Part shown: positions 286 to 22,265 of the stretch, in pieces
Position numbering within the stretch: the first letter of the stretch is position 1
Layout of the letters: each line of letters opens with the position of its first letter
Origin: a virus
IMG/VR virus record: IMGVR_UViG_3300046003_007575
Location: 1 to 22,662 of that record
Reading direction: 5' to 3' (one strand)
DNA: 22,662 nucleotides
The notes under the pieces: model-generated
The model's database searches: none
What the model was told of the DNA's origin: nothing
Seen by the model: the letters and a program-made list of their open reading frames with translations, nothing else
Program-made: the position numbers and the translations under genes

Positions 286-819
286 ATGGCTCGTATTGGA
301 TTAACAGGGACTGTCTCTGTAGGCAAAACTACTTTAGTTAATGCTTTAAAAGAATTATCACAATTCAAAGATTATAAATTTGCTACTGAGCGTAGCAAGT
401 ATTTAAGAGATTTAGGTATTCCATTGAATACTGATTCTACATTAAAGGGCCAAACAGTATTTTTAGCTGAACGAGTAAGTGAATTAATGCATGAAAACTT
501 AATTACTGATAGAACAGTTATTGATGTAATGGCATTTACTCTGAATGCTAAATCAATAAATCAAGCTGATAAAACTTCATTTGAAGAATATGCTCGTAAT
601 TTTATTAATGAGTATGATTACATTTTTTATGTTTCTCCTGAAGGGATAGAAATAGAGAACAATGGTGTACGAGAAACTAATGCTGAATATAGAGATTTAA
701 TAGATTTTACTATTAAAGGATTTTGTCAATTATATAATCATAGAATGAAAAAATTCACTATGATATCAGGTACAACTGAAGATAGAATTAATCAAATACT
801 AGAAGTTATTTCTTTGTAA
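286..819 (+). CDS. P-loop ATPase/kinase, NadR- or nucleotide-kinase-like
   Basis: A 177-residue single-domain P-loop protein. Walker A is GTVSVGKT at residues 8-15 inside the opening strand ARIGLTGTVSVGKTT. A second acidic motif, TDRTVIDVMAF at 74-84, fits a Walker B/DR(x)ID element of the NadR-like ATPase (AAA_28) and deoxynucleotide kinase-like families. Residues 124-140 carry the Arg-containing segment NNGVRETNAEYRD, which could be a substrate lid. Length fits a compact nucleotide or nucleoside kinase. No membrane segment is present. Likely role: phosphorylating a nucleotide, nucleoside or NAD precursor in the infected cell. The substrate cannot be told from sequence. It sits among accessory genes upstream of the packaging genes, so it is probably a metabolic accessory gene rather than a virion protein. 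Confidence 0.7.
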   Translation: MARIGLTGTVSVGKTTLVNALKELSQFKDYKFATERSKYLRDLGIPLNTDSTLKGQTVFLAERVSELMHENLITDRTVIDVMAFTLNAKSINQADKTSFEEYARNFINEYDYIFYVSPEGIEIENNGVRETNAEYRDLIDFTIKGFCQLYNHRMKKFTMISGTTEDRINQILEVISL

Positions 820-828
820 TATTTATAT
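818..828 (+). promoter_or_regulatory. Candidate late promoter box (ATATTTATA)
   Basis: Exact ATATTTATA at 819-827, starting at the stop codon of the kinase-like gene and ending 31 nt before the ATG of the 293-residue gene at 859. One of ten exact copies placed before genes in this window. Confidence 0.55.
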
Positions 829-858
829 CAAAATACTAATCTAAAAAATAATAAACAA

Positions 859-1740
859 ATGAATTTTAATATCGATTTTGATTTAAAGAAAGCAAAAAGC
901 CTTTTATTAAGCGAAGGATACCAAGAACAAGGGTTTGAAAGTGAAGATGAAATGCAAGATTACTATAATGATAGTGACTTCATTGATGAGGGGGAATCAT
1001 TAGACGAAAATAACTCACCAGAATATATGAAAGGGTATGGTGATGGTTACACTGATGGGTACTATGATGGTGAAAATGGGAATGAGAAAGCAGTTGAGGT
1101 CAATGAAAGTCAATTAGACGAAATGGCTAAAATTGCTGGTGATTTAAAATCTTCAATTGAATCTGTAATAACTGCTAATCCTGAACTGCAAGGTCTTGCA
1201 CTCAAAAAAGCAATTAAAGGAGATGCAGCTGTAATTAATGCTTTAGATGGTGAAGATTTATTTGATAATCAACTTAATAAATTTATTGCTTTAACTAAAG
1301 GTGAAAGAGAATTAGGACAAAGAGGTAGAAAAGCAGACCCAAATAAACCAGCTGCTGAACCAAAAGTAAAAGCAGAAAAACCAGCTAAAGAAAAATCACC
1401 AAAATTAAGAATTACTGATCCTACTGTAGGTGAAAAACCAGTTGCTACATCATTTATTGATGGTGAAGATGAAGAAGAAATGGCTGCTGAAAAACAAGCT
1501 ATTGCTGCTGCTAAAGGTAGTAAAAGATTAGGTACTGCTGCTGAAAAATTAGCTCAAATAACTAAAGAAATGAAAGCTTTAATTCCTGCTTATCAAGCAG
1601 CTAAAGGTACTGATAAAGAAGCTGCTATTGTAGCTCAATTAAGAGCTTTAACTGCCGAGAAAAAATCACTAGAAGCTAAAGTATTCAAAGCACCAAAATC
1701 ATTAAGTGCTGCTGATTTGATGGGTGGCGAAGAAGTATAA
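859..1740 (+). CDS. Unknown acidic/basic low-complexity protein upstream of terminase
   Basis: A 293-residue protein of biased composition and unknown function. The N-terminus (1-50) is acidic. Residues 57-74 hold a Gly/Tyr/Asp run (KGYGDGYTDGYYDGENG). A central basic tract at about 154-190 contains a QRGRK AT-hook-like motif and Lys/Pro/Ala repeats. The C-terminal third (about 205-275) is Ala/Lys/Glu-rich and probably helical or coiled coil. The N-terminal FDLKKAKSLLLSEG resembles the FDFKKYLAEG of the 86-residue protein at 9405 and includes a possible prohead-protease cut (LSE/G). In T4 the small terminase lies directly before the large one, so that is one possibility, but I see no diagnostic small-terminase feature, and a terminator plus promoter box separate the two genes. 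A DNA-binding internal head protein is another option. Start chosen as the first ATG, 31 nt after a late-type box. Confidence 0.6.
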   Translation: MNFNIDFDLKKAKSLLLSEGYQEQGFESEDEMQDYYNDSDFIDEGESLDENNSPEYMKGYGDGYTDGYYDGENGNEKAVEVNESQLDEMAKIAGDLKSSIESVITANPELQGLALKKAIKGDAAVINALDGEDLFDNQLNKFIALTKGERELGQRGRKADPNKPAAEPKVKAEKPAKEKSPKLRITDPTVGEKPVATSFIDGEDEEEMAAEKQAIAAAKGSKRLGTAAEKLAQITKEMKALIPAYQAAKGTDKEAAIVAQLRALTAEKKSLEAKVFKAPKSLSAADLMGGEEV

Positions 1741-1764
1741 TTAAAAAATTAATAAATTTAAATT

Positions 1765-1792
1765 AGCCTAACTTAAAATGTTAGGCTTTTTT
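1765..1792 (+). terminator. Rho-independent terminator before terminase
   Basis: Perfect 8-bp stem AGCCTAAC (1765-1772) / GTTAGGCT (1780-1787) with a 7-nt loop and a T run to 1792. It lies 24 nt after the stop of the 293-residue gene and 10 nt before the next ATATTTATA box. Confidence 0.85.
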
Positions 1793-1801
1793 CTCTTCTA
1801 T

Positions 1802-1810
1802 ATATTTATA
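1802..1810 (+). promoter_or_regulatory. Candidate late promoter box before terminase
   Basis: Exact ATATTTATA, directly downstream of the terminator ending at 1792 and 14 nt before the terminase ATG. Its position between a terminator and a gene makes a promoter the simplest reading. Confidence 0.65.
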
Positions 1811-1824
1811 TAGAAACACATCCA

Positions 1825-3426
1825 ATGAGTGAACAACAAGCAATTCCCTTAAAAGAAATGATAAAACAGGAATGGGTAAGATGTGCTCAAGATCCTGTGT
1901 ACTTCATGAAAAAATATTATTGGATTCAACACCCACAAAGAGGTAGAATCCAATTTAACTTATTCCCATTTCAAGAAAAAGTATTACATCAACTTCAAAA
2001 GAATGAGTATACCATTATCAATAAATCCCGCCAATTAGGTATATCAACATTAGCCTCAGCTTATTCTTTGTGGTTAATGTTATTTAATAAAGATAAAAAC
2101 GTACTGTGTATAGCAACTAAACAAGAAACTGCTAAAAACATGGTAACTAAAGTACGTTTTGCCTACGATAATTTACCTAAATGGTTAAAAACAGGTGATA
2201 AACCATCAGAAAATAATAAGTTATCACTTAAATTAACTAATGGTTCACAAATTAAAGCAGTTGGTGCTACAGCGGATGCGGGTCGTTCAGAAGCCGTTTC
2301 TTTTCTTATTATTGATGAGGCTGCTTTTATTGAAGGAATTGATGAAATTTTCGCTTCAGCACAACAAACTTTAGCTACTGGGGGTCAATGTTTAGCATTA
2401 TCTACCCCTTATGGTACAGGTAACTGGTTTCACAGATCCTTTACTAAAGCACAAGCTAAAGAAAACAAATTTGTTCCATTAAAATTACCTTGGACCGTTC
2501 ACCCTGAACGAGATCAAACATGGAGAGATGATCAAGACGAAATTCTAGGATTAAGACACGCAGCACAAGAATGTGATTGTGATTTCAGTACCTCAGGAGA
2601 TACTGTTATTGAACCAGATTTACTTAATTTCTATGAATCAACTTACATTTCAGATCCAATTGAAAGAAGAGGACCTGGTGGTGATTTATGGGTTTGGGAG
2701 CTACCTGATTACTCTAAATCATATATGGTAGTAGCTGACGTTGCTCGTGGAGATGGAGCTGACTACTCTGCGTTTCATATTTTTGATGTAGCTGAAGCTA
2801 AACAAGTAGCTGAATTTAAATCACAATGCCAAACCAAAGATTACGCTCATATATTATTTTCAATAGCAACAGAATACAATGATGCTTTATTAGTAGTAGA
2901 AAACGCTAATATTGGGTGGAGTGTAATTGAACAATTAATAGATAGAGGTTATAGAAATTTATATTACTCTTCTAAAGCCGATACCACAATGGGTGCTAAT
3001 GAAAATCAATTAGCAAGAATGGAAAACGGTCAAGGTATGCTACCAGGTTTTACTACTTCAATGAAGACAAGACCACTTTGTGTTTCAAAATTAGTTTCGT
3101 ACCTTCAAGAAAGGTCAGTTGTTTTTCAATCTCGTAGATTGATGGATGAATTAAGAGTATTCGTTTGGAAGAACGGTAAAGCTCAATCCCAATCAGGGTA
3201 TAACGATGACTTGGTAATGTCGTTTTCTATTGGTTTATTCCTGAGAGATACAGCATTACGTTTCAGACAACAAGGTTTAGATTTAACTAGAGCTACTTTA
3301 GGTAGTTTTGGTGTTTCTAACCACCAATCACCTGGAATATTTTCATATAGCCATCAAAATGATAACCCATATAAAATGGATGATGGTAAAGGTGGGACCG
3401 AGGACTTAAATTGGCTTCTCGGTTAA
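1825..3426 (+). CDS. 17: Terminase large subunit (T4 gp17-like)
   Basis: The DNA-packaging motor: an N-terminal ATPase pumps DNA through the portal and a C-terminal RNase H-like nuclease cuts the concatemer. At 533 residues it is slightly shorter than T4 gp17. Visible elements: Walker A-like SRQLGIST at 68-75, Walker B LIIDEAAF at 161-168 with the catalytic Glu, coupling motif LSTPYGTGN at 192-200, nuclease motif I VVADVARGDGADYSAF at 302-317, a second acidic motif VVENANIG, and GYNDDLVMSF near the C-terminus supplying the last metal-binding acids. The Walker A Lys of T4 (SRQLGKT) is Ile here, a deviant P-loop in which R69 may act. It is the first gene of the unit that also carries the portal. 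ATG 14 nt after a late-type box, no Shine-Dalgarno. Confidence 0.96.
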   Translation: MSEQQAIPLKEMIKQEWVRCAQDPVYFMKKYYWIQHPQRGRIQFNLFPFQEKVLHQLQKNEYTIINKSRQLGISTLASAYSLWLMLFNKDKNVLCIATKQETAKNMVTKVRFAYDNLPKWLKTGDKPSENNKLSLKLTNGSQIKAVGATADAGRSEAVSFLIIDEAAFIEGIDEIFASAQQTLATGGQCLALSTPYGTGNWFHRSFTKAQAKENKFVPLKLPWTVHPERDQTWRDDQDEILGLRHAAQECDCDFSTSGDTVIEPDLLNFYESTYISDPIERRGPGGDLWVWELPDYSKSYMVVADVARGDGADYSAFHIFDVAEAKQVAEFKSQCQTKDYAHILFSIATEYNDALLVVENANIGWSVIEQLIDRGYRNLYYSSKADTTMGANENQLARMENGQGMLPGFTTSMKTRPLCVSKLVSYLQERSVVFQSRRLMDELRVFVWKNGKAQSQSGYNDDLVMSFSIGLFLRDTALRFRQQGLDLTRATLGSFGVSNHQSPGIFSYSHQNDNPYKMDDGKGGTEDLNWLLG

Positions 3427-3432
3427 TTTTAA

Positions 3433-3441
3433 ATATTTATA
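3433..3441 (+). promoter_or_regulatory. Candidate late promoter box before portal
   Basis: Exact ATATTTATA in the 32-nt gap between terminase and portal genes, ending 17 nt before the portal ATG. Confidence 0.55.
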
Positions 3442-3458
3442 ATATATAATAGAATTTT

Positions 3459-5384
3459 ATGGTAGATACTTCATTTTTTGGTAGATTACAACGATTGTTT
3501 TCAACTGACGTTATAATAAGAAACGTTGGAGGTAATCAATTAAAAGTAATGGATACAGATCGTATCCAACAACTTGGTACTATTCAAACAAACTCACTTT
3601 TTGATAGATACAATAAAGTATACACTACAACAGGTGGGCTAAACTTTAATTTTAATAACGATTTATCATATCCTACTACACGTATCCAGTTATATACTGA
3701 CTATGAGTTAATGGATAGTGATTCAATTATTGCTTCTACATTAGATATTTTAGCTGATGAGACTTGTTTGAGAAATGACATGGGAGAAGTATTACAAATA
3801 CGTTCTTCTGATGAAACTATTCAAAAAATTCTATATAATTTATTTTATGATGTATTAAACATAGAATTTAATCTATGGTCATGGACTCGTAACATGTGTA
3901 AGTATGGTGATTTCTATCTTAAATTAGAAATATCAGAAAAATTTGGTGTTTATAATGTAATACCATTCTCTTCTTACTCAATTTTAAGATTAGAAGGTAG
4001 AAACCCTGAAAAACCACAAGAAGTAAAATTCAAATACGATCCTACTTTCTCTTCTCAACAATCTACAATGGGACCACAAACGGTTTCTGGTTATACTCGT
4101 AACCAAAGTGAGGGTATAGTATTTGATAATTACGAAATGGCCCACTTTAGATTATTATCTGATTTTAACTTTTTACCTTATGGTAGAAGTTATATTGAAC
4201 CTGCTCGTAAAATATTTAAACAATTAACTTTAATGGAAGATGCGATGTTGATACATCGTATTGTAAGAGCACCTGAAAAACGTACTTTTTTTATTAACGT
4301 TGGTAATATTCCACCAAATGAAGTAGAAAACTTCATGCAACGTACTATTAATAAAATGAAGAAAACACCTTACATGGATCCAAGTACAGGTGAGTATAAT
4401 TTAAAATACAATATGCAAAACATTCTTGAGGATTTTTATATTCCTGTAAGAGGTGGTGATGCAACAACTAGAATTGAAACTACAAAAGGATTAGATTATA
4501 CAGCTATTGAGGATGTTACTTATTTAAGAGATAAATTATTTGCTGCTTTAAAAGTACCAAAAGCATATTTTGGGTATGAAAAAGATTTAACAGGTAAAGC
4601 TACCTTAGCTGCTGAAGATATTCGTTTTGCTCGTACAGTAGAAAGAATCCAAAGAATTTTAGTATCTGAATTAACAAAAATTGCTTTAGTTCACTTGTAT
4701 TCACAAGGGTATGATGGAGAATCATTAACAAATTTTGATTTATCATTAACTGTTCCTTCAATCATATACGAACAAGAAAAAGTAGCATTGATGAAAGAGA
4801 AATCTGCATTAGCTACTGAATTGATTCAAAATAAAATTGTACCTACTGATTGGGTTTATGATAATATTTTCCACTTTAGTGAAGATCAATACGATGAATA
4901 TAGAGATTTAATGATTGAAGATGCTAAACGTAAATTTAGATTAGATCAAATTGAAACAGAAGGTAATGATCCAAGTAAAACAGGTGAAGCTTATGGTACA
5001 CCACACACTTTAGCTACACTTTATGGGCCAGGTAGATACCCAGGTACTGAAGGTGTACCAACAGGGTATAATGAAGATGGTGATACCTATCCTGATCAAG
5101 TATTAGGTCGTCCTAAAGAAAAAGCATCAAATATCAATACACAAGAAAATCCATTTGGTAAAGATAGATTAGGTAGAGATGGAATGAAAAATGGAGATGA
5201 ACCTAATGGTTTTAAACCATCAGCAAGACAAGCCTCTTCATTATCCTTAGAAAATTTATCAACACAAGCAGTTTATCACCAAATCTCAAGTAATTTGAAA
5301 AATATGTTTCCTAAACAGAAGGTAAGTTTGTTTGAAGAAAGTGATTTATTAAACGAAGACAACCTCTTAAAAGAAGATAAATAA
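3459..5384 (+). CDS. 20: Portal protein (T4 gp20-like)
   Basis: Forms the dodecameric ring at the special vertex where head assembly starts and DNA enters. At 641 residues it is longer than T4 gp20 (524). The family is recognised from the N-terminal segment with YTDYELMDSDSIIASTLD at about 87-104 and ILADETCLRND following it, the KYGDFYLKLEI strand, the RLLSDFNFLPYGRSYIEPAR segment, the clip/wing region MLIHRIVRAPEKRTFFINVG, and KVPKAYFGYE...TLAAEDIRFARTVERIQ towards the core. The C-terminal 140 residues are polar and low in structure (Gly/Pro/Asn-rich, then SLFEESDLLNEDN) and may extend inside the head; several LxE-type sites there could be protease targets. Terminase upstream and head genes downstream support the call. 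Confidence 0.94.
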   Translation: MVDTSFFGRLQRLFSTDVIIRNVGGNQLKVMDTDRIQQLGTIQTNSLFDRYNKVYTTTGGLNFNFNNDLSYPTTRIQLYTDYELMDSDSIIASTLDILADETCLRNDMGEVLQIRSSDETIQKILYNLFYDVLNIEFNLWSWTRNMCKYGDFYLKLEISEKFGVYNVIPFSSYSILRLEGRNPEKPQEVKFKYDPTFSSQQSTMGPQTVSGYTRNQSEGIVFDNYEMAHFRLLSDFNFLPYGRSYIEPARKIFKQLTLMEDAMLIHRIVRAPEKRTFFINVGNIPPNEVENFMQRTINKMKKTPYMDPSTGEYNLKYNMQNILEDFYIPVRGGDATTRIETTKGLDYTAIEDVTYLRDKLFAALKVPKAYFGYEKDLTGKATLAAEDIRFARTVERIQRILVSELTKIALVHLYSQGYDGESLTNFDLSLTVPSIIYEQEKVALMKEKSALATELIQNKIVPTDWVYDNIFHFSEDQYDEYRDLMIEDAKRKFRLDQIETEGNDPSKTGEAYGTPHTLATLYGPGRYPGTEGVPTGYNEDGDTYPDQVLGRPKEKASNINTQENPFGKDRLGRDGMKNGDEPNGFKPSARQASSLSLENLSTQAVYHQISSNLKNMFPKQKVSLFEESDLLNEDNLLKEDK

Positions 5385-5389
5385 AATTA

Positions 5390-5398
5390 ATATTTATA
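5390..5398 (+). promoter_or_regulatory. Candidate late promoter box after portal
   Basis: Exact ATATTTATA 5 nt after the portal stop codon and 27 nt before the next ATG. A 10-bp palindrome, TAGTTAACTA (5404-5413), follows in the leader. Confidence 0.55.
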
Positions 5399-5425
5399 AC
5401 TAGTAGTTAACTATATTTTGAATAA

Positions 5426-6280
5426 ATGGCTAATATAAAGCATAACAAATTCCGTAATACTGGAATACTATTTGAATTACTTGTAAGAAAAATTACAGCT
5501 GATACAATGTCCAGTCACGATTCTAAGGCGGTATCTTTGATTAAGAAGTATTTTGTTAATACTGAATTATCAAGAGAAAACAAATTATACCAATCGATAT
5601 CAAAATCCCAGAATATTAGTGAGGCTCAAGCTGAGTCAATTCTTTCTACAATTCTAGAAGTAAATAAAACTTTAGATAGAACTAAATTAGCTAAAGAGAA
5701 ATATAATTTAATTAAAGAAATTAAATCCAATTTCGATATTGAAGATTTTTTTAAAGCTAAAATTAGTAACTACAAATTATTATCTTCAACATACACTTTA
5801 TTAGAAGCTAATTTAACACCCACAAAAAATCTAGACGATATTTTATCCTCAAAAATTAATATCTTAGAACATATAGCTCAAACTAATGCTATATCTGTTC
5901 CACAACCTACAGTAAGTGAGTTTGAAACTTTAGATAAAGGAACTCGTGCGTTAGTTTACAAAATTATGCTAGAAAAATTTAATGATAGATTTAATACATT
6001 ATCTGATGATCAAAAAGATGTGTTAAAAGAATACATTAATAATATTACTAACACGACTAACCTGAAAAAATACGTGGATACTAAATTCACATACCTAAAA
6101 GAATCTCTTTTAAAATTATTACCTACAATAGAGGACGCTACAATTAAAATTAAAGTGAATGAGACAATAAATCTTATTAACCCTATTTTAGAAGCTAAAA
6201 CAATAAAAGACGATAATATAGTTGCATTATTACAATATCAAGAATTACATAGTGAGCTAACTAAAATTCATAATGGATAA
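5426..6280 (+). CDS. Conserved-type phage head-module protein, function unknown
   Basis: A 284-residue, mostly helical, charged protein without signal peptide or membrane segment. The N-terminus MANIKHNKFRNTGILFELLV resembles a hypothetical protein that I associate from memory with marine T4-like phages next to the portal gene. In T4 this place holds the small prohead core proteins gp67 and gp68, but this protein is much larger and I see no clear similarity to them. Residues 85-230 hold long amphipathic helices (DRTKLAKEKYNLIKEIKSN and TTNLKKYVDTKFTYLKESL). The 3' end overlaps the next gene by 8 nt, suggesting coupled translation. Placement between portal and protease suggests a role in prohead assembly or portal-proximal structure. 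No enzymatic motif is visible. Confidence 0.7.
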   Translation: MANIKHNKFRNTGILFELLVRKITADTMSSHDSKAVSLIKKYFVNTELSRENKLYQSISKSQNISEAQAESILSTILEVNKTLDRTKLAKEKYNLIKEIKSNFDIEDFFKAKISNYKLLSSTYTLLEANLTPTKNLDDILSSKINILEHIAQTNAISVPQPTVSEFETLDKGTRALVYKIMLEKFNDRFNTLSDDQKDVLKEYINNITNTTNLKKYVDTKFTYLKESLLKLLPTIEDATIKIKVNETINLINPILEAKTIKDDNIVALLQYQELHSELTKIHNG

Positions 6281-6956
6281 AGATAAACTAAGAGAATTAG
6301 TCCTAAAATATCTAGCTGAACTTCTCGATGAAACTTCAGCAACTGGTGGTGCTGGTGGATATTTAACTAAAGCTTTTGTTAGAAAATCTACTTCTCAAGA
6401 TAAAAATGCTCCTGCAGGATTTGAAAAAATGCCTAAATCAGGTGATGTTTATAGAAAAATGGGATTTAGAATTGTAAAACCCAATGAAAGAATTGATGCT
6501 AAGGATTTGTGGAAAGGGCAACATCTTGAAGAAAGAATAGGATACGCTACTCCAAAAGCATTCAAAAAACCTAAAAAACAAAACGAGACCTCTAAACCAG
6601 GACACGAAGATTTACCTAACCCAGATAAATATTTTGAACTAGTGAAATTTAAAATAGTTGACCCAACAAAATCTTCTAAAAAGAAAGAAGAACCACTTAA
6701 TGAAGTACGTTATTCTCAATTCAAATCACAATCTAAAAATAGAACACCACAAGAGCAATTGCATATGGGTGTTAAACAGATTCAACATAAATTAGATGAA
6801 ATTAATAAATTAGTTGAATTTGCTACTAGAATGAAAACTGAATTAAAAGGTGATGCTGATCAAATGAACTACCTAAAACGTACTCATAATTCATTGTTTA
6901 AAATAAATGAAAAGATCCAAGATATTAATAATAAAATTAAAGATTTAACTGAGTAA
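6273..6956 (+). CDS. Unknown head-module protein with coiled-coil C-terminus
   Basis: A 227-residue Lys-rich protein of unknown function. Residues 5-20 form an amphipathic helix ending in KYLAELLDE, which offers prohead-protease-like sites (LAE, LDE); a Gly-rich SATGGAGGYLTKAF linker follows at 22-35. The middle (60-150) is charged with few hydrophobic residues. The C-terminal 70 residues (QEQLHMGVKQIQHKLDEINK to the end) are strongly heptad-like and probably coiled coil. It overlaps the preceding gene by 8 nt and the following small gene by 1 nt (TAATG), so the three are probably translated from one message. The short helix followed by a cleavable site resembles T4 prohead core and internal proteins, so a core or scaffold-associated role is my guess; there is no direct evidence. 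Confidence 0.7.
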   Translation: MDKDKLRELVLKYLAELLDETSATGGAGGYLTKAFVRKSTSQDKNAPAGFEKMPKSGDVYRKMGFRIVKPNERIDAKDLWKGQHLEERIGYATPKAFKKPKKQNETSKPGHEDLPNPDKYFELVKFKIVDPTKSSKKKEEPLNEVRYSQFKSQSKNRTPQEQLHMGVKQIQHKLDEINKLVEFATRMKTELKGDADQMNYLKRTHNSLFKINEKIQDINNKIKDLTE

Positions 6957-7105
6957 TGGCAGCAGCAAAAGCAAAGGTTAGTTCTACTACAGCTAAAATA
7001 GACAAACCAAAAGTTTCTAGACCAGGTGTTCACTCTAAAGCAAAAACATCTAAATTAAAAAGTTCTAAAAACTATAAAAAACTAAACAGAGGACAAGGTA
7101 AATAA
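6956..7105 (+). CDS. 49-aa basic peptide, paralogue of the one at 22272
   Basis: A short gene starting at the ATG that overlaps the preceding stop (TAATG) and ending with TAA at 7103-7105. The peptide has 49 residues, about a third of them Lys or Arg, and almost no hydrophobic core. Its C-terminal half contains GVHSKAKTSKLKSSKNY (residues 24-40) and ends in RGQGK. The same arrangement, GIHSKKKNSKLKTSKNY ... KGQGR, is found in the 47-aa peptide at 22272-22415, so the two are paralogous and the reading frame is under selection. The 1-nt overlap with the upstream gene and the box immediately downstream define its limits. The composition fits nucleic-acid binding or packaging with DNA in the head, but the function is unknown. 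Confidence 0.75.
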   Translation: MAAAKAKVSSTTAKIDKPKVSRPGVHSKAKTSKLKSSKNYKKLNRGQGK

Positions 7106-7106
7106 A

Positions 7107-7115
7107 ATATTTATA
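7107..7115 (+). promoter_or_regulatory. Candidate late promoter box 3 nt before a start codon
   Basis: Exact ATATTTATA, one base after the stop of the 49-aa gene and only 3 nt before the ATG at 7119. If this is a -10-type element, the transcript would begin at or just inside that ATG, so it would be leaderless or start further in. Confidence 0.45.
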
Positions 7116-7118
7116 CCC

Positions 7119-8777
7119 ATGACAATACAAGATTTATACACTCAATACTTAGATGGTAAGGTAACCAAACAAAAATTTCTTTACGAGGCTCGTAGAGATC
7201 AAAACCTTACTATGATCTCCCCTACCAACTCATTTGATGATGTAGTTAAGATCCTTAAAAACAAATCTATCATCTCAGAAAAAGCTCATAAAGAAGCTAA
7301 ACAGTCTACAGGAAAACAAGATGTTGAAATTATATCTAAAACTATTGATATGGTTAACCCATATGAGTATGCTAATGGTATGGATTATGAATTGGGAATT
7401 ATAGATATACCAGCAACAGATGGAGATTTAGATGAAGGTAATGTACTTAAAGCACAGAAAAAAGTACTAGCTAATCTTACTAAAAATCCTTCATACTATA
7501 CTGAAAAATTGTATGGTAGAGTTAAATTTGATGGTGATAAAACTGTTGAAATTAATAAAAAATCAATGGATGCTATTGGTAAAGGTAAAAAAAATGTAAT
7601 TAGAGAAGGTGTAGCATATTCACAAGATCCTAAAAATGTAAAACTTAAAAATGGTAAGATTTATAGAAATGTTAGGTTTCATATGAAAGATGATCCTAGA
7701 TCATTTGTAACTGCTGATGGTGGTTATATGATAAATCAAGATATAGCTAGTGTAGTTAATGCTGATCAGCAATTTAAAGAAGTATTTGAAGGAGGATTTG
7801 TTTCAAGAGGAGCAATATTAAATGCACTTGATGATGTGGGTAGTGAATCTGAAATTAGACAATACTTAACCTCATTAGAAAAATCAGGTGATAAATTTAA
7901 AGACGTAGACGACTATGTTGAAGATTTTAAAAACTATATTGCTGATAAGGGGCTAGATGAACATGGTCAATATGCTGGTAAAGTAGCTGATGTAAACCCA
8001 CGTACTCAAGGTAAGATTAAAGAAAATATTATTGGTAAAAAAGTAAAACTTACTAATAAGAATGATGGTAAAGAATACTTTGGTACTATAGAAAAAGACT
8101 TAGGTAAAGGAGATTTTGTGTACAGAGACAAAAAATCAGGTAAATTAGAAAAAAGTACTGGATACGGAAAAAATTGGAAAATTGAGATGTTAAAAGAATC
8201 TTACAACCCATTCCCAATGACTGAAGATCAAGAAGCAGTAATAAGAAAATATGCTGAATCAACAGGTATAGCTTTTGAAAATTTATTAAATATGGTTGCT
8301 GAAGCTAAAGCTAAAAAAAAAGCTAAAAAAGACTATGATGGTGATGGTGAAATAGAATCATCTGAAGAAGAATATAAAGGTTCTCGTGATAAAGTTATAA
8401 AACAAGCTACTAACGAAGATCTAGATTTAGGTCATCAAGATAACGAACCACGTATGATTAAAGGTGAGTTATATCAAATTGCTAAACAAGCTACTGAATT
8501 ATATAAAATGATTGATGCTGTAGATAATATGGGTGAAGTAGATTTTCCTCATTGGTGGCAAGCAAAAATTGTTTTAGCTAAAAATTATTTAGCAGGATCT
8601 AAAGATTATTTAGATAGCGCTTTAGCAGTAGGTAATGAAGAAGGTGAAATGGAAGAAGCTATTGCTTTAAAAGATAAAGCTGGTAATACTCAATATGCTA
8701 AAGATTCAACTGAAGCTTCAAATATAGAAAGAGCAGCTAAAACTAAAGGTGTAATTTTAACAAAAACTCAAGTATAA
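7119..8777 (+). CDS. 552-aa multidomain head-module protein with EF-hand loop
   Basis: Unknown function; several regions can be made out. Residues 1-30 form a short helical tag (DLYTQYLDGK, KFLYEARRD) with a possible prohead-protease site. Residues 300-350 (IIGKKVKLTNKNDGKEYFG to YGKNWKIEML) look like a small beta domain. After a Lys/Ala stretch comes DYDGDGEIESSE at 405-416, a complete 12-position EF-hand loop (D1, D3, D5, G6, I8, E12), which probably binds calcium. Residues about 435-500 (LGHQDNEPRMIKGELY ... DFPHWWQAKIVLAKNYL) form a helical domain that I recall from hypothetical proteins of marine T4-like phages. The last 45 residues (ALKDKAGNTQYAKDS ... TKGVILTKTQ) form another small unit. 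It precedes and overlaps the protease gene by 1 nt, so a prohead core or maturation role is plausible. The next in-frame Met is residue 32. Confidence 0.75.
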   Translation: MTIQDLYTQYLDGKVTKQKFLYEARRDQNLTMISPTNSFDDVVKILKNKSIISEKAHKEAKQSTGKQDVEIISKTIDMVNPYEYANGMDYELGIIDIPATDGDLDEGNVLKAQKKVLANLTKNPSYYTEKLYGRVKFDGDKTVEINKKSMDAIGKGKKNVIREGVAYSQDPKNVKLKNGKIYRNVRFHMKDDPRSFVTADGGYMINQDIASVVNADQQFKEVFEGGFVSRGAILNALDDVGSESEIRQYLTSLEKSGDKFKDVDDYVEDFKNYIADKGLDEHGQYAGKVADVNPRTQGKIKENIIGKKVKLTNKNDGKEYFGTIEKDLGKGDFVYRDKKSGKLEKSTGYGKNWKIEMLKESYNPFPMTEDQEAVIRKYAESTGIAFENLLNMVAEAKAKKKAKKDYDGDGEIESSEEEYKGSRDKVIKQATNEDLDLGHQDNEPRMIKGELYQIAKQATELYKMIDAVDNMGEVDFPHWWQAKIVLAKNYLAGSKDYLDSALAVGNEEGEMEEAIALKDKAGNTQYAKDSTEASNIERAAKTKGVILTKTQV

Positions 8778-9394
8778 TGAGCAAATCATTATTAATAGAA
8801 TACGCTTTATTCACACCTAAATCCACAGTATTAACTGAGGGTAAAGGTGATAGAAACTTAATAGTTGAAGGTGTTATTCAAAGAGCAGATGCTAAAAATC
8901 AAAACGGTAGAGTTTACCCTAAAACTATTTTAGAACGTGAAGTTGAAAGATACATTGACGGTCCTGTATCTGAAAATAGAGCATTAGGTGAATTAGATCA
9001 CCCAGAATCAATGGTAATTAATTTAAAAAATGTATCTCATAACATCAAAAAATTATGGTGGAACGGAGATGATTTGATGGGTAAAGTAGAAGTATTACCA
9101 ACACCTTCAGGTAACATCTTAAAAGAATTATTTTTAAATAAAATTACTGTAGGTATTTCTTCTCGTGGTATGGGTTCAGTTCAACCATTAGGGGAAGGTA
9201 CAGTTGAAGTTCAAGATGATTTCGAACTATTATGTTGGGATTTTGTTTCTACTCCTTCAACACAAGGTGCTTTTATGACTCCAACAGGTCTAAGTGAAGG
9301 ATACAAACCACAACACAATAATAAATACTCAAAAATTAACACACTAATATCAGACATTATCTGTTCTCAATCAGGTGTATGTTGTATTAGATAA
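8777..9394 (+). CDS. 21: Prohead maturation protease (T4 gp21-like)
   Basis: A serine protease of the herpesvirus-assemblin-like fold (gp21/U9 and S78 families) that sits in the prohead core and cleaves scaffold, capsid and internal proteins before packaging. At 205 residues it is close to T4 gp21 (212). Visible signatures: NGRVYPKTILEREVERYI at 43-60, the catalytic His in GELDHPES (H75), the catalytic Ser in GISSRGMGSV (S128/S129), and the WDFVSTPST segment at 154-162. The N-terminus contains LTE/G and IVE/G, possible self-processing sites. The C-terminus ends with a Cys-containing tail (IICSQSGVCC). Start ATG overlaps the upstream stop (TAATG). Position directly before scaffold and capsid genes is the T4 order 21-22-23. 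Confidence 0.93.
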   Translation: MSKSLLIEYALFTPKSTVLTEGKGDRNLIVEGVIQRADAKNQNGRVYPKTILEREVERYIDGPVSENRALGELDHPESMVINLKNVSHNIKKLWWNGDDLMGKVEVLPTPSGNILKELFLNKITVGISSRGMGSVQPLGEGTVEVQDDFELLCWDFVSTPSTQGAFMTPTGLSEGYKPQHNNKYSKINTLISDIICSQSGVCCIR

Positions 9395-9404
9395 AAACAC
9401 AAAC

Positions 9405-9665: not shown

Positions 9666-9684
9666 ATTAAAAATACTCTCCCGA

Positions 9685-9705
9685 TTTTACAAGTCTATTG
9701 TAAAA
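9685..9705 (+). repeat. Perfect inverted repeat upstream of terminator
   Basis: TTTTACAA (9685-9692) and TTGTAAAA (9698-9705) form a perfect 8-bp stem with a 5-nt loop, 5 nt before the terminator hairpin. It has no T tail of its own. It could stabilise the 3' end of the protease-region transcript or be a protein-binding site. Confidence 0.5.
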
Positions 9706-9710
9706 GACTA

Positions 9711-9739
9711 ATGCACTCCCTAAAAAGAGTGCATTTTTT
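9711..9739 (+). terminator. Rho-independent terminator after the protease unit
   Basis: Perfect 8-bp stem ATGCACTC (9711-9718) / GAGTGCAT (9727-9734), 8-nt loop, T run to 9739. It separates the terminase-to-protease unit from the scaffold/capsid unit; the next late-type box begins 12 nt downstream. Confidence 0.85.
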
Positions 9740-9751
9740 ATTCCCCCTTAT

Positions 9752-9760
9752 ATATTTATG
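9752..9760 (+). promoter_or_regulatory. Candidate late promoter box for scaffold/capsid unit (one mismatch)
   Basis: ATATTTATG differs from ATATTTATA only at the last base. It follows the terminator ending at 9739 and precedes the scaffold ATG at 9860 by 99 nt, the longest box-to-gene distance here. Transcripts would carry a leader of roughly 90 nt, A-rich near its 3' end. Confidence 0.5.
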
Positions 9761-9859
9761 GATATCTCAATGATAGATTATCCCAATATAATCTCCCTCA
9801 TAATCGAAAAATTCTATATTACTTCTCAATAAGTAATCAAAAACAATCAAAAAATTATT

Positions 9860-10798: not shown

Positions 10799-10837
10799 AA
10801 AAATTAAAAACAACAAAAATCTAAAAATTACATTATT

Positions 10838-12529
10838 ATGTCAAACATGATTAATTCTTTATTAGAGACCGCAAACCCATACACATCTATACAAAAAGAT
10901 GCTTCCAGATTAGCTGGAAAATGGGGTAAATCAGGTCTTTTAGAAGGTATTTCTAATGAAACTGATAAGTCTAACATGGCTATCATCTTAGAAAACCAAG
11001 CAAAACAATTAGTAGTAGAATCTTCTGCTACAGGAACAGGTGGTACTTTTACCGCTGGAACAGGTGAGCAATACGCTGCTGTAGCATTACCATTAGTACG
11101 TAAAGTATTTGGTCAATTAGCTGCTAAAGAGTTTGTTTCTGTTCAACCTATGAGCTTACCAGCTGGTTTGGTATTCTTCTTAGATTTCCAATATGGAACT
11201 AACGTAGATCCATTCAACACTACAGCAGGTACTAACTCATTGTATGGTAACCAAACAGCTAACTTCGGTAACGATAGAGCAGGTGGTTTATATGGTGCAG
11301 GTAGATTTGGATACTCAATTAACCCATTCTCAGGATCTTTTGTAAGTGGTACTTTATTACAAGCTGCTGCAACAAAAGCAACTTTAACTGCTACTACAGC
11401 TTCATGGGCTGATATTTCTTATGATGCTGATTTATCTGCTTCTCAAGCCGCAGGTACTATTAAAGCTTTAACATTACCAACTTCAAGTCTTCCAGGATTT
11501 GATATAAATGGTATTCGCTCATTCTCAGTTTCAGGTTCAGGTGCATTTACAGTAGCTAAACAATTACCACAATTTACACAATTGAATTTAGTTTCTGGAA
11601 ATATTACTTATTTCTTTACTGCTTCAACTGCTGAGGTAGCAACAGCTCAAGCTGCTTTAACTCAAGTATTGTATGGTAAAGGCCCAGCTGATAACTCAAG
11701 AGGTGATTTTGAAGATAATCAAGGTGCTGGTTACCCTAATGCTGAATCAACAACTTCGATTGTTATTCCAGAAATTAACGTTCAAATGCGTTCAGAAGCG
11801 ATTGTTGCTAAAACACGTAAATTGAAAGCACAATGGACTCCTGAGTTCTCTCAAGATTTAAATGCATTCCACCCACTTGATGCTGAAGCTGAATTAACTT
11901 CTATCTTATCAGAGTACATCTCATTAGAGATTGACCTTGAAATCTTAGATATGTTGATCCAAAATGTTCCAACAAACCAAGTTGAATTCTGGTCTGCTCA
12001 AGTAGGTACTACTGTTACTGCTGCTGGTGGAGTTGTTCCAAACAGTGCTAACTCAGGTTTGTATTACACTCAAATGTCTTGGTTCCAAACTTTAGGAATT
12101 AAATTGCAAAAAATCTCTAACATCATCCACCAAAGAACTTTAAGAGGTGGTGCTAACTTTATTGTTGTTTCTCCAACAGTTGCTACAGTATTAGAATCTA
12201 TCCCTGGATTTGCTGCTGATACAGATGGTGATTCAGCTAAAATGAGCTATGCATTTGGTGTTCAGAAAATTGGTGCTTTAAACTCTAGATATAAAGTTTA
12301 CAAAAATCCTTACATGCTAGAAAACACTATCTTGATGGGATTCAGAGGTAATCAATTCTTGGAATCAGGTGCTGTTTATGCTCCATACGTTCCGTTGATT
12401 ATGACTCCATTAGTATATGATCCAAATACTTTCTCACCAAGGAAAGGTATTATGACAAGATATGCTAAGAAAATGGTACGTCCAGAGTTTTATGGTAAAG
12501 TAATTGTGACAAACACTAACTCTATCTAA
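10838..12529 (+). CDS. 23: Major capsid protein (T4 gp23-like)
   Basis: The HK97-fold shell protein. At 563 residues it is somewhat longer than T4 gp23 (521). The N-terminal about 60 residues look like the propeptide removed on maturation: the junction QLVVESSATGTGG places a Glu at residue 61, close to T4 gp23's cleavage after Glu65, though the site is VVE rather than the usual (L/I)xE. Family signatures after it: ALPLVRKVFGQLAAKEFVSV at about 82-101, LVFFLDFQYGT, the long helix region RKLKAQWTPEFSQDLNAFH, the block DAEAELTSILSEYISLEIDL, FIVVSPTVATVLESIPGF, and the C-terminal KGIMTRYAKKMVRPEFYGK. Residues about 170-290 are Ser/Thr/Ala-rich and probably form an insertion domain. A strong terminator follows. 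Confidence 0.95.
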   Translation: MSNMINSLLETANPYTSIQKDASRLAGKWGKSGLLEGISNETDKSNMAIILENQAKQLVVESSATGTGGTFTAGTGEQYAAVALPLVRKVFGQLAAKEFVSVQPMSLPAGLVFFLDFQYGTNVDPFNTTAGTNSLYGNQTANFGNDRAGGLYGAGRFGYSINPFSGSFVSGTLLQAAATKATLTATTASWADISYDADLSASQAAGTIKALTLPTSSLPGFDINGIRSFSVSGSGAFTVAKQLPQFTQLNLVSGNITYFFTASTAEVATAQAALTQVLYGKGPADNSRGDFEDNQGAGYPNAESTTSIVIPEINVQMRSEAIVAKTRKLKAQWTPEFSQDLNAFHPLDAEAELTSILSEYISLEIDLEILDMLIQNVPTNQVEFWSAQVGTTVTAAGGVVPNSANSGLYYTQMSWFQTLGIKLQKISNIIHQRTLRGGANFIVVSPTVATVLESIPGFAADTDGDSAKMSYAFGVQKIGALNSRYKVYKNPYMLENTILMGFRGNQFLESGAVYAPYVPLIMTPLVYDPNTFSPRKGIMTRYAKKMVRPEFYGKVIVTNTNSI

Positions 12530-12553
12530 TAATATCTTAGAATATTTTAAAAG

Positions 12554-12583
12554 TGCCTAGCAAAAGCTAGGCATTTTTTTTTT
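12554..12583 (+). terminator. Strong rho-independent terminator after capsid gene
   Basis: Perfect 8-bp stem TGCCTAGC (12554-12561) / GCTAGGCA (12566-12573) with an AAAA tetraloop and ten Ts. It closes the scaffold/capsid unit. Confidence 0.92.
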
Positions 12584-12621
12584 ATTGTTCATAACTTTCT
12601 GTTAAATTCCGGGCTTTTCAT

Positions 12622-12630
12622 ATATTTATA
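12622..12630 (+). promoter_or_regulatory. Candidate late promoter box for HNH gene
   Basis: Exact ATATTTATA, 38 nt after the capsid terminator's T run and 14 nt before the HNH ATG. It gives the inserted endonuclease gene its own transcription signal. Confidence 0.6.
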
Positions 12631-12644
12631 ATAAACAATAAGAT

Positions 12645-13196
12645 ATGAAAAAGTGTAAAAGATGTGAATTAGAAAAAGATGAAACTGAATTTGTAAAACG
12701 TAAAGCTGAAAAAGATGGCTTACATAGATACTGTAAGGTATGTTCGTATGATATAGGAAAAAAATATTATCATAATACGGGTAAAATTTCAAGAGAATCA
12801 TACTATAAAGAATACCGTACCAATAATAAAGAAAAAATAAAAATTGGAATGAGATTAGCTATGAAAAAACACAGAGCTAAAAACAATAATTACAGATTAA
12901 GAGATAACATTCAGACATTACTTCGTTATCACATTAAAAATAAAACTCAAAGTGTAATTAAATACATTGGTTGTACCTTACAAGAATATAACGATCACAT
13001 CTCAGCTCAATTTAAGCCTGAAATGAACTGGGAAAATTATGGAATATACTGGGAGATAGACCATATTATACCAATCTCATCATTTGATTTAAGTATATCT
13101 GAAGAAGCCAATAAAGCTTTCCACTTCTCTAACACCCAACCCCTTACTATAACCGAAAACAGAAAAAAATCAAATAAGAGGTCTAACGCAAGTTAG
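12645..13196 (+). CDS. Free-standing HNH endonuclease (putative homing nuclease)
   Basis: A 183-residue protein with an N-terminal zinc-binding module and a C-terminal HNH domain. Four cysteines form two CxxC pairs: C4/C7 (KCKRC) and C30/C33 (YCKVC). Residues 40-105 are Lys/Arg/Tyr-rich and probably contact DNA. The HNH part reads YWEIDHIIPISSF at 135-147 (D139/H140 in the active site), then FHFSNTQPL at 159-167 with N163, and ENRKKSNK at 171-178, where Asn stands in the third position (HNN variant). Such enzymes cut DNA and often act as homing endonucleases, either free-standing as here or inside introns. The gene interrupts the head and neck genes between capsid and phoH and carries its own promoter-like box and terminator, as expected for a mobile cassette. 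No intron features are seen in the neighbouring genes, which are intact. Confidence 0.88.
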   Translation: MKKCKRCELEKDETEFVKRKAEKDGLHRYCKVCSYDIGKKYYHNTGKISRESYYKEYRTNNKEKIKIGMRLAMKKHRAKNNNYRLRDNIQTLLRYHIKNKTQSVIKYIGCTLQEYNDHISAQFKPEMNWENYGIYWEIDHIIPISSFDLSISEEANKAFHFSNTQPLTITENRKKSNKRSNAS

Positions 13197-13206
13197 GTCT
13201 TTTTTT
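13180..13206 (+). terminator. Terminator overlapping the HNH stop codon
   Basis: GGTCTAAC (13180-13187) pairs with GTTAGGTC (13192-13199) through six Watson-Crick and two G-U pairs, closed by a GCAA (GNRA-type) tetraloop, followed by seven Ts. The stem includes the last codons and TAG stop of the HNH gene. Confidence 0.75.
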
Positions 13207-13209
13207 GTC

Positions 13210-13218
13210 ATATTTATA
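13210..13218 (+). promoter_or_regulatory. Candidate late promoter box before phoH
   Basis: Exact ATATTTATA only 3 nt after the T run of the HNH terminator and 21 nt before the phoH ATG. The tight terminator-box junction supports a promoter reading. Confidence 0.6.
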
Positions 13219-13239
13219 TTAAACAATAAACGTTATTAT

Positions 13240-13926: not shown

Positions 13927-13927
13927 A

Positions 13928-13936
13928 ATATTTATA
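13928..13936 (+). promoter_or_regulatory. Candidate late promoter box before neck/tail genes
   Basis: Exact ATATTTATA starting 1 nt after the phoH stop and ending 14 nt before the ATG at 13951. No further exact copy appears until 21984, so it may drive the whole neck-to-fibre run. Confidence 0.6.
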
Positions 13937-13950
13937 TTAAATAATATAAT

Positions 13951-17867: not shown

Positions 17868-17877
17868 AACAAAATAA

Positions 17878-21168: not shown

Positions 21169-21554
21169 TAACAACTATAATAAACAAAGAAATTAGTATT
21201 TTTGATAAATTTGGAAAAATAGAAGTTATTTATCCAAATGGTATTTTAATTGAAAGTAATTTTATAATTATTAATGACTTTTATAAAATAGAGTCAAAGA
21301 TATATGAAAATATTTCTTATACTGACGAAAATAAAGAATTAATAATTTGTAAAGGATCTAATATATCTAATAATTTTCAAGAATACATAAATTTACAAAT
21401 CAATTGGGCATCAACACCTAAAAATTTTGATGTAATAAAAGATAATATTATCGAAACTGTAAATACATATATAATGAACATAATAAAAAATTATTGTTTA
21501 TTACAATCAAATGATCAATATAAACCTGAAAATATTTATCAACAAATAAACTAA
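21165..21554 (+). CDS. Hypothetical protein downstream of adhesin
   Basis: A 129-residue protein of unknown function, Ile/Asn-rich, starting in a 4-nt ATGA overlap with the adhesin stop, so its translation is probably coupled. Residues 1-65 look like strands (SIFDKFGKIEVIYPNGILIESNFII), and 85-115 are helical (KNFDVIKDNIIETVNTYIMNIIKNY). A resemblance to small fibre-cluster proteins is possible because of position: an adhesin chaperone or baseplate hinge would fit, but there is no motif to prove it. Base composition is even more AT-rich than in the head genes. A one-mismatch copy of the late box (ATATTTATC, 21532-21540) lies inside its last codons. Confidence 0.6.
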   Translation: MITTIINKEISIFDKFGKIEVIYPNGILIESNFIIINDFYKIESKIYENISYTDENKELIICKGSNISNNFQEYINLQINWASTPKNFDVIKDNIIETVNTYIMNIIKNYCLLQSNDQYKPENIYQQIN

Positions 21555-21567
21555 ATTAAACCAAGTT

Positions 21568-21969
21568 ATGAAAAAAATTACATTAAAACTTTTAGAAATA
21601 CTAAATCTATATATAGAAATTACAGGAACAAATCCATTAAATAGTATTATTACACATGATCATGATCATGATGTATTATTAAAAGAAAACTTATCAATTT
21701 CAACTAAATTCAAATTATATAAATTAATAACATCTTTAGATAAAGAAATTGATATTTTTATTAAAAATAGAGATGAGCTAGTTAAAAAACACGGAACTAC
21801 AACAGATAAAACAACTTATACTGTTATTCATGTTGATGAATTTAATAAAGAAATTGAAGAATTATTACAATTAGATATAGAGATAGAGTATCATGAGTTA
21901 ATATTATCAGAATTTGAACATATTAAAACTTCAAATATTCAACCAACTTTATACAAAATGTTTTCATAA
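21568..21969 (+). CDS. Hypothetical helical protein with HDHDHD motif
   Basis: A 133-residue, mostly helical protein. Residues 30-35 are His-Asp-His-Asp-His-Asp, a possible metal-binding cluster, encoded by a perfect 16-bp palindrome at 21655-21670. The layout (short N-terminal helix, 'LSISTKFKLYKLITSLDKEIDIF' helix, 'RDELVKKHG' turn, 'FNKEIEELLQLDIEIEYHEL' helix, then a short conserved-looking end) resembles the DUF1617-type small proteins of tailed phages in outline. I hold that only loosely. No signal peptide or membrane segment. It starts 13 nt after the previous gene and is followed by a late-type box. Confidence 0.6.
   Translation: MKKITLKLLEILNLYIEITGTNPLNSIITHDHDHDVLLKENLSISTKFKLYKLITSLDKEIDIFIKNRDELVKKHGTTTDKTTYTVIHVDEFNKEIEELLQLDIEIEYHELILSEFEHIKTSNIQPTLYKMFS
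21655..21670. repeat. 16-bp perfect palindrome inside a gene
   Basis: CATGATCATGATCATG reads the same on both strands. It encodes the His-Asp repeat of the 133-residue protein and contains overlapping GATC sites. Confidence 0.7.
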
Positions 21970-21983
21970 AATTCTAATCGTCT

Positions 21984-21992
21984 ATATTTATA
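21984..21992 (+). promoter_or_regulatory. Candidate late promoter box
   Basis: Exact ATATTTATA in the gap after the HDHDHD gene, ending 13 nt before the ATG at 22006. Confidence 0.55.
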
Positions 21993-22005
21993 ATAAAATA
22001 AAACT

Positions 22006-22248
22006 ATGAAAGAAATAAAATTATCCAAACAAACTGAAATTGATATTGTTATCAAAGAATCAATAAAAATTATTACAGATACCATTCAAATAAAACAATT
22101 AATAGATGATGGAAATTCTGTAAAAGCTGTTATAACTGTTAATGATAAAACTACTATGATAACATTATGGGAAGATCAATCTTATACAAATATAGGTCAA
22201 TGGACAGATAATGATGTTGAAAATAGAATAATAGTATTATTTAGTTAA
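22006..22248 (+). CDS. Small conserved-type phage protein, function unknown
   Basis: An 80-residue protein with an N-terminal helix (IDIVIKESIKIITDTIQIKQLI), two strands (SVKAVITVNDKTTMITLWED), and a C-terminal 'SYTNIGQWTDNDVENRIIVLF' segment. The 'LWE...YT.IG.WTD.DV..RI' ending is of a type I recall from small hypothetical phage proteins, but I cannot name the family or its job. It has a late-type box on each side (21984 and 22257), so it may be a one-gene unit or the first of a series. No signal peptide or membrane segment is present. Confidence 0.6.
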   Translation: MKEIKLSKQTEIDIVIKESIKIITDTIQIKQLIDDGNSVKAVITVNDKTTMITLWEDQSYTNIGQWTDNDVENRIIVLFS

Positions 22249-22256
22249 GTTTTATA

Positions 22257-22265
22257 ATATTTATA
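22257..22265 (+). promoter_or_regulatory. Candidate late promoter box 6 nt before a start codon
   Basis: Exact ATATTTATA, 8 nt after the preceding stop and only 6 nt before the ATG of the 47-aa basic peptide. A T4-type start site would give a nearly leaderless message. Confidence 0.5.

Follow-up and report, generated by a model that had tools for sequence, protein, structure and literature searches.

Late genes of bacteriophage T4 are expressed from a short box, TATAAATA, located at -13 to -6 (PMC1524935), and T4 late transcription serves as the model for the coupling of transcription to replication through a sliding clamp. Variants of the late box are described in other T4-like phages, including NATAAATA in cyanophage S-PM2 and CTAAATA, with C at -12, in Aeromonas phage Aeh1 (PMC2984593, PMC1524935), and the primary sigma promoter of Flavobacterium carries TAnnTTTG at -12 to -5 (PMC9723704). 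Here we analyse a 22,662-base IMG/VR virus record, IMGVR_UViG_3300046003_007575 (hereafter the window, meaning the whole stretch), in which a short element, ATATTTATA (the box), stands before many genes. We consider it likely that ATATTTATA is the late promoter of a flavobacterial clade of T4-like phages, a changed version of the T4 box that is read by a changed phage sigma factor. A sequence-only reading of this DNA had proposed a T4-like phage of Bacteroidota whose late promoter has diverged, and its proposal is supported by the strand and gap placement of the box, its enrichment before virion genes, a sigma gene in relatives and the Flavobacterium hosts of the nearest named relatives.

The closest named records are four Flavobacterium immuto phage records representing three isolates (59.7% identity in the terminase, 54.9% in the capsid protein), followed by Microcystis phage Mel-JY01, the uncultured 484-kb phage LR756508 and Rhodothermus phage RM378. 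Immuto and related phages of 155-190 kb were treated as one group of 14 in a study of DNA polymerase swapping (PMC11348598). No description of the box was found among the matches listed for literature on Flavobacterium or Bacteroidetes phages, immuto or T4-like late promoters, in sources accessible in part and with subscription journals mostly outside the coverage; we regard it as a new form of T4-type late promoter.

The box in the window and in related loci

All genes taken from the open reading frame (ORF) calls lie on the + strand of the window, where ATATTTATA occurs in 10 exact copies, with none on the - strand; all of them stand in gaps ahead of + strand genes, and the copy at 819 starts on the final base of a stop codon. 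Dinucleotide shuffles gave a mean of 0.86 copies and a maximum of 5 for the whole window (200 shuffles), and a mean of 0.31 and a maximum of 3 for the gaps alone (1000 shuffles), in line with the sequence-only estimate of about one chance copy per window and fewer in gaps. That reading had also placed the ten exact copies correctly, on the + strand and in gaps (10/10), together with a single-mismatch copy at 9752, present as ATATTTATG. By eye it had found no T4 box on the + strand; TATAAATA does occur there once, at 18279, inside a gene. The 8-mer TATTTATA is also found inside a gene once, at 19544.

Of the 12 gaps measuring 15 nucleotides (nt) or more, 9 hold an exact box, as does the 13-nt gap before the gene at 7119; the longer gaps that lack one are 256-285, 9666-9859 (which carries ATATTTATG) and 10799-10837, before the capsid gene. 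Window genes less than 13 nt behind the preceding gene have no box. When one mismatch was allowed anywhere, 40 sites were seen against 41.9 expected, which is chance level, and the signal in the window is therefore confined to the near-exact box.

The same pattern extends to 80 related loci (L009-L088 included), chosen by capsid similarity as the best 80 of at least 600 candidates. These contain 270 sense and 6 antisense copies of ATATTTATA, with sense exceeding antisense in 72 of the 80. Counting the 9-mer on both strands and, in the window, against shuffles, a check suggested with the sequence-only reading, revealed strand- and gap-specific enrichment in window and relatives alike. L062 and L063, which nearly duplicate L061, were omitted from the 8-mer scan, the site alignment and some variant counts, leaving 78 loci. 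The unbiased scan ranked all 8-mers by sense enrichment in gaps; it placed ATATTTAT first (377 sense, 21 antisense) and TATTTATA second (295 and 20), where 3-5 were expected from coding sequence. ATATTTAT likewise came top in the window, with TATTTATA also leading, and in 50 kb of Mel-JY01 (11 sense, 0 antisense). As a positive control, the scan returned TATAAATA at the top in 40 kb of T4 (7 to 1) and 40 kb of cyanophage P-SSM4 (5 to 0), counts that are small. The T4-type consensus TATAAATA/NATAAATA is not the form carried by the relatives: TATAAATA has 20 sense copies in the gaps of the 78 loci versus 295 for TATTTATA. Single changes to ATATTTATA are tolerated at its ends, with C for the first A in 57 sense and 5 antisense copies and other bases for the last A in 141 sense and 18 antisense copies, and the core consensus of the box is (A/C)TATTTAT(A).

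Two further motifs were seen in gaps. RM378 (L311, 85-130 kb) has TTATTTAA before genes, with 8 sense and 2 antisense copies, a weak to moderate enrichment; this is possibly a further variant of the box. Among L009-L088 the overlapping 8-mers CCCCGTAA, CCCGTAAG and CCGTAAGG each occur 22-23 times in sense and never in antisense, and probably belong to a shared terminator hairpin.

The window is the head module of a T4-like phage, because PHROGs profiles match terminase, portal, protease, capsid and adaptor genes. Further PHROGs matches are a thymidylate kinase (286-819), an endonuclease VII-like gene (12645-13196), a PhoH-like gene (13240) and a head-tail adaptor-like gene (13951). The candidate late boxes, the terminator-like hairpins and the main head genes are as follows; predicted starts derive from the sequence register described below.

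819..827, + strand: late box ATATTTATA before gene 859; predicted start about 831
1765..1787, + strand: intrinsic terminator-like hairpin upstream of box 1802
1802..1810, + strand: late box before terminase gene 1825, 14 nt past the terminator; predicted start about 1814
1825..3426, + strand: terminase large subunit, gp17-like (phrog_2, E 9.6e-49)
3433..3441, + strand: late box before portal gene 3459; predicted start about 3445
3459..5384, + strand: portal protein, gp20-like (phrog_213, E 1.2e-61)
5390..5398, + strand: late box before gene 5426; predicted start about 5402
7107..7115, + strand: late box 3 nt ahead of ATG 7119; predicted leaderless mRNA from 7119, layout conserved in relatives
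8777..9394, + strand: head maturation protease, gp21-like (phrog_207, E 1.2e-54)
9710..9735, + strand: intrinsic terminator-like hairpin upstream of box 9752
9752..9760, + strand: one-mismatch late box ATATTTATG before a 20-codon ORF and gene 9860, 16 nt past the terminator
10838..12529, + strand: major head protein, gp23-like; the preceding 39-nt gap has no exact box
12549..12578, + strand: intrinsic terminator-like hairpin upstream of box 12622
12622..12630, + strand: late box before endonuclease VII-like gene 12645, 43 nt past the terminator
13176..13203, + strand: intrinsic terminator-like hairpin ahead of box 13210; gene 12645-13196 ends within it
13210..13218, + strand: late box before phoH-like gene 13240, 6 nt past the terminator
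13928..13936, + strand: late box before head-tail adaptor-like gene 13951
21984..21992, + strand: late box before gene 22006
22257..22265, + strand: late box before gene 22272

A scan of bases 1-15000 gave six + strand terminator-like hairpins. Four of these have at least 8 pairs, and a box lies 6 to 43 nt beyond every one of the four (1802, 9752, 12622 and 13210). The capsid gene, unlike most gapped genes of the window, has no late box in its 39-nt gap (10799-10837) and is presumably co-transcribed with gene 9860. Between the box at 9752 and gene 9860 lies the 20-codon ORF MIDYPNIISLIIEKFYITSQ (9770-9832), possibly a leader peptide or a small structural peptide; similar peptides also follow a TATTTAT in L009 and L010, and in immuto the gene that precedes the capsid gene is itself preceded by an annotated 30-codon gene, whose sequence differs.

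Gene classes, predicted start site and competing explanations

Gaps account for 4.6% of the complete immuto genome and hold 24 of the 30 copies of TATTTATA. In the terminase-head-tail region this 8-mer stands before 13 of 25 gapped genes and in the baseplate-fibre region before 3 of 7, but among the small hypothetical genes at 61-78 kb before only 1 of 30. When immuto was taken together with three large related records (G001, G002 and G003, whose genes were called mechanically and classed by similarity to immuto), ATATTTAT or TATTTATA was present before 66 of 89 gapped virion-type genes versus 21 of 135 other classified genes, in classes that we assigned from annotation and gene position. By record, late genes carry the box in 15/18 (G001), 18/21 (G002), 14/18 (G003) and 19/32 (immuto) cases, and other classified genes in 4/15, 3/26, 5/22 and 9/72; Fisher p values for the four records are 1.6e-3, 2.9e-7, 1.2e-3 and 1.8e-6, and the reverse complement, used as a control, precedes 0, 1, 1 and 3 late genes. 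Genes without a match in immuto, excluded from these tests, have the box in 7/40 (G001), 11/53 (G002) and 18/70 (G003) cases. Equal frequency inside genes or before early genes, which the sequence-only reading had named as the pattern that would speak against it, was not what we found: the box is gap-specific, enriched before virion genes and nearly absent before the small immuto genes.

Those small genes have a pattern of their own. TAT(N)TTTAG(N)TA occurs 26 times forward and twice in reverse in immuto, with 23 of the forward sites at 60.9-76.3 kb among small genes (L090), and TTG lies exactly 23 nt upstream in all 26. Bacteroidota primary sigma promoters have TTG at -33, and the early-type pattern resembles the primary sigma promoter of Flavobacterium. 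G002 has 18 forward and no reverse sites, 17 of them at 88.9-96.2 kb (G002:C1:88865-96158), and the pattern as written is not enriched in every relative (G003 has 6 forward and 2 reverse, G001 2 and 2). The arrays of TTG-N20-TAT(A/C)TTTAG before small hypothetical genes in immuto and G002 are very uniform, in immuto often followed by GTATCAATAATTAAAA, and are probably early promoters; just upstream of the G002 array, at G002:C1:87442-87642, is a second protein with a sigma-70 region 2 match over the Pfam cut-off. From the host-type promoter and the kind of gene, we infer that the small genes of immuto are early. Immuto and G002 at least thus appear, on sequence evidence, to use two promoter types for two gene classes, host-type promoters for one and the late box for the other.

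To locate the probable transcription start, 482 gap sites from 80 sources were aligned by TATTTAT and positions were counted from its first T. The base at -1 is A in 80% and C in 18% of sites, and A is dominant at +11 (76%) and +12 (62%). At 403 sites an ORF of at least 30 codons begins within 60 nt. Sorted by the place of its ATG, 4 of these sites fall at +7 to +10, 60 at +11/+12, 12 at +13 to +17 and 327 at +18 or beyond. Sites lacking such an ATG within 18 nt (347 unique) still have A at +11 in 77% and C in 1%. This suggests that the start site is a purine, mostly A, 3-4 nt past the box; a start at +11/+12 would produce both the ATG spike and the purine peak if some mRNAs are leaderless and very short leaders are avoided. 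The spike covers 8 of 55 gene families, and a single family, made up of homologues of window gene 7119, contributes 46 of its 60 cases; many members of this family resemble one another from that ATG onward. Counted once per family, +11 is represented by 3 families and +12 by 7, with 1 or 2 each for +13 to +17. The start predicted in this way puts the box at about -12 to -4, compared with -13 to -6 in T4. The claim that there is no conserved -35 partner was borne out by positional k-mer counts: no k-mer at a fixed distance is common to most of 417 unique sites, which show only small or lineage-driven peaks and a weak preference for G/T 18 nt upstream.

One alternative is that host sigma-A, possibly aided by a phage activator, reads the box as a variant of the -7 element of primary-sigma promoters, TAnnTTTG. 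The immuto early-type promoters contain TATATTTAG, which has ATATTTA in common with the late box, and the predicted position of about -12 to -4 overlaps that of the host -7 box, -12 to -5 (PMC9723704). The details of the box speak otherwise. The host T at -12 lacks conservation, with T standing ahead of (A/C)TATTTAT in 23% of sites, and 18% of sites carry C in place of the host A at -11. After TTT the box continues with A rather than G, a departure from TAnnTTTG. No TTG stands at a fixed distance upstream of the late boxes, in contrast to 26 of 26 immuto early-type sites at -23, and the two promoter types occupy different gene regions of immuto. The lack of both the T at -12 and an upstream TTG leads us to reject host sigma-A as the main reader, and we regard this explanation as unlikely.

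We think it improbable that the box acts in RNA, as an element of the 5' leader that governs translation or mRNA stability. It does sit just before start codons, and the window genes lack Shine-Dalgarno sequences (an SD-like 4-mer precedes 2 of 26 genes), an absence that is usual in Flavobacterium (PMC6847099). However, the spread of ATG positions (327 of 403 at 18 nt or more, 60 at 11-12 and 12 at 13-17) fits a start site rather than a ribosome-bound element, window genes less than 13 nt behind the previous gene go without the box, and four window boxes come after terminator-like hairpins. Least probable of all is that a phage regulator binds the box, as an operator or other DNA site, and that the real promoter is a different element. 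Some immuto copies do lie within longer palindromes such as TATTTATAAATA, but nearly all copies point in one direction relative to genes and are followed by a purine peak at a fixed distance, both typical of a promoter and not of a symmetrical operator.

The candidate sigma factor and its predicted contacts

T4 gp55 is a member of phrog_234, and a genome search with this profile gave weak matches in 2 of 20 records, to immuto gp118 (E 0.008) and to a protein of G003 (E 3.8e-5). From each of these proteins 80 relatives were collected, and a profile (A1) was built on 37. With A1, 9 of 21 records proved to carry the sigma gene (E 2e-81 or better), among them all 4 that exceed 100 kb; one of the positive records, G001, has a capsid protein 86% identical to that of the window. 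A related sigma gene is also present in Mel-JY01 and LR756508. The recorded host of Mel-JY01 (PP395634.1, L274) is Microcystis elabens, yet its sigma and late box are of the flavobacterial-clade type and not the cyanophage type; either its true host differs from the label, or the box tracks the sigma rather than the host. The RM378 sigma Rm378p144 was set aside as an ordinary sigma by reading of its sequence, and the synteny expected from annotation between immuto gp115/gp116 and T4 gp46/gp47 received no PHROGs support.

Pfam Sigma70_r2 matches 31 of the 37 A1 members at E 1 or better (best 3.5e-4), and in a genome search it picked out the family member in G002 and G003, below cut-off. A sequence search of solved structures with the sigma family returned no sigma factor. 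A model of domain 2 (the first 122 residues; predicted local distance difference test, pLDDT, 83) was compared by VIA-align with 202 PDB chains pre-ranked by Foldseek. The best row was the T4 gp55 open complex, 7d7c_F, with Z 9.4 and a root-mean-square deviation (rmsd) of 3.1 over 106 residues (model 10-122 on gp55 10-124), and the best 50 of 163 rows with Z of at least 2 are all titled as sigma factors or RNA polymerase complexes. Two rows, models named RPSB and RPSD, we take to be sigma factors. As 7d7c_F is tied with other sigmas, the predicted structure points to a sigma domain 2 fold, gp55 among its bearers, for the N-terminus of the gp118 family. About 100 residues follow domain 2, and residues 140-226 align weakly to sigma-E region 4 (2h27_D; Z 5.3, rmsd 3.4, 69 residues). 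To our knowledge, T4 gp55 has no region 4. The gp55-like sigma that the sequence-only reading had suggested looking for was thus found as a gene in relatives whose predicted domain 2 fits gp55 best, in a tie with other sigmas, although the link in sequence is weak.

The T4-type gp33 and gp45 homologues named alongside it were not convincingly detected. A gp45-type clamp (phrog_223 and PF09116) was found in none of five relatives (immuto, G001-G003 and Mel-JY01), and gp33 (phrog_254) gave no convincing match in the same five (one at E 0.02); both searches were positive in the P-SSM4 control, G001-G003 may be incomplete, and diverged forms of either protein, or a fused gp33, could escape these profiles. 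The bacterial clamp profile PF02767, for which there was no phage control, likewise matched none of the five. A gp44-like clamp loader had a strong match in G003 and Mel-JY01 only.

With +11 as the start, the box reads (A/C)-12 T-11 A-10 T-9 T-8 T-7 A-6 T-5 A-4. In this one register, which would differ with a start at +12 or +13, the T4 core ATAAATA appears as ATATTTA, with AA changed to TT at -9/-8 and A/C-12, T-11, A-10, T-7 and A-6 kept. That the box is the reverse complement of the T4 box, as the sequence-only reading had emphasised, is true yet looks incidental; the informative comparison is the direct one. Within its open complex, gp55 grips A-12 through Y97, A-9 through N13 and H95, and A-8 through T99 (PMC7892883). 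A1 members have Y at the Y97 place (37/37), T at the N13 place (37/37), Y (30) or F (7) at the H95 place, G (32) or Q (5) at the T99 place and T at the R57 place (37/37). Because both the bases at -9/-8 and the N13, H95 and T99 contacts are changed, the altered positions of the box would be those whose contacts are altered, a matching of residue to base that depends on a single register and a single alignment. The comparison leaves out the T4 residues E70, D74 and E77. In the joint gp55 alignment, which took in 11 of 69 family members, LR756508 has D at the N13 place.

Several observations weigh against a changed gp55-type sigma reading a changed late box. LR756508 gave no ATATTTAT signal in the 50 kb scanned despite its related sigma, and the window fragment itself has no A1 match for a sigma gene. 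A direct PHROGs scan linked phrog_234 with the G003 protein alone (E 0.0026) and at E 0.1 gave no such match for immuto gp118; phrog_12791 matched none of 20 records; and the genome search with Sigma70_r2 was negative for immuto, G001 and Mel-JY01. Alignment by hhalign to eight known gp55 proteins reached a probability of 21% (P 2e-4), a weak sequence link. VIA-align rows within 1 Z are tied, and a middling Z is easily obtained for helical folds; Foldseek alone gave no match at E 0.001 or better, its first domain-2 rows being nickel superoxide dismutase and other non-sigmas. The contacts are not uniform either: cyanophage gp55s that use the TATAAATA box also have F at H95, the box-bearing Mel-JY01 keeps R at R57 and has S at T99, and Moby, a phage with a known gp55 whose box is outside this comparison, has K at N13 and S at T99. 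To these belong the box before 21 of the 135 genes classed as not late, the author-assigned classes and the dominance of one family among the leaderless cases.

Comparison with known promoter systems

If ATATTTATA is a late promoter, as we favour, the box would work as a -10-like element without a -35 partner, read by the host RNA polymerase core together with a phage gp55-type sigma, immuto gp118 and its relatives. Transcription would begin at a purine, mostly A, 3-4 nt beyond the box, would serve the head and tail genes, in the window four times directly after a terminator-like hairpin, and may yield leaderless mRNA at some boxes. Computation here establishes the motif with its strand, placement, conservation and enrichment before virion genes, together with the presence in relatives of a candidate reader with a predicted sigma fold; promoter function, reading by this sigma, the start site and the pairing of residues with bases are inferences from these data. 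A more specific version seems to us possible but doubtful, namely a T4-like late system without a sliding-clamp activator, in which one sigma would combine a gp55-like domain 2 with a region-4-like domain in the place of gp33 on the RNA polymerase flap, the change of AA to TT at -9/-8 would have co-evolved with the reading pockets, and the box would have adopted the Bacteroidota -7 spacing. If this clamp-free, two-domain reading is true, the system would be more than a variant of the T4-type promoter. An environmental clade that pairs a gp55-like sigma and two altered bases in the box with no detected clamp or gp33 of T4 type would reveal how such a system shifts its specificity and whether it can dispense with the clamp. 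Immuto on Flavobacterium sp. LMO8 is a cultured phage-host pair suited to testing these ideas, and the box may be used as a marker of late operons in unannotated phage contigs.

Compared with the Bacteroidota primary sigma promoter, the late box has a similar predicted distance to the start and TTT in common (PMC9723704), but lacks the upstream TTG and the T at -12, features of the host-type form that is carried by the early-type genes of immuto. Unlike the T4 system (TATAAATA, gp55, gp33 and gp45), the clade has TT in place of AA, a box predicted to lie 1-2 bp closer to the start, a sigma with an extra C-terminal part weakly like region 4, and no convincingly detected gp33 or gp45 of T4 type. 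It nevertheless resembles T4 late transcription in having a short -10-like box before virion genes, no fixed -35 element and a phage sigma with a gp55-like domain 2. As in S-PM2 and Aeh1, both of which retain AA at -9/-8, the box is a variant of the same element, with A or C at -12 (C in 18% of sites here).

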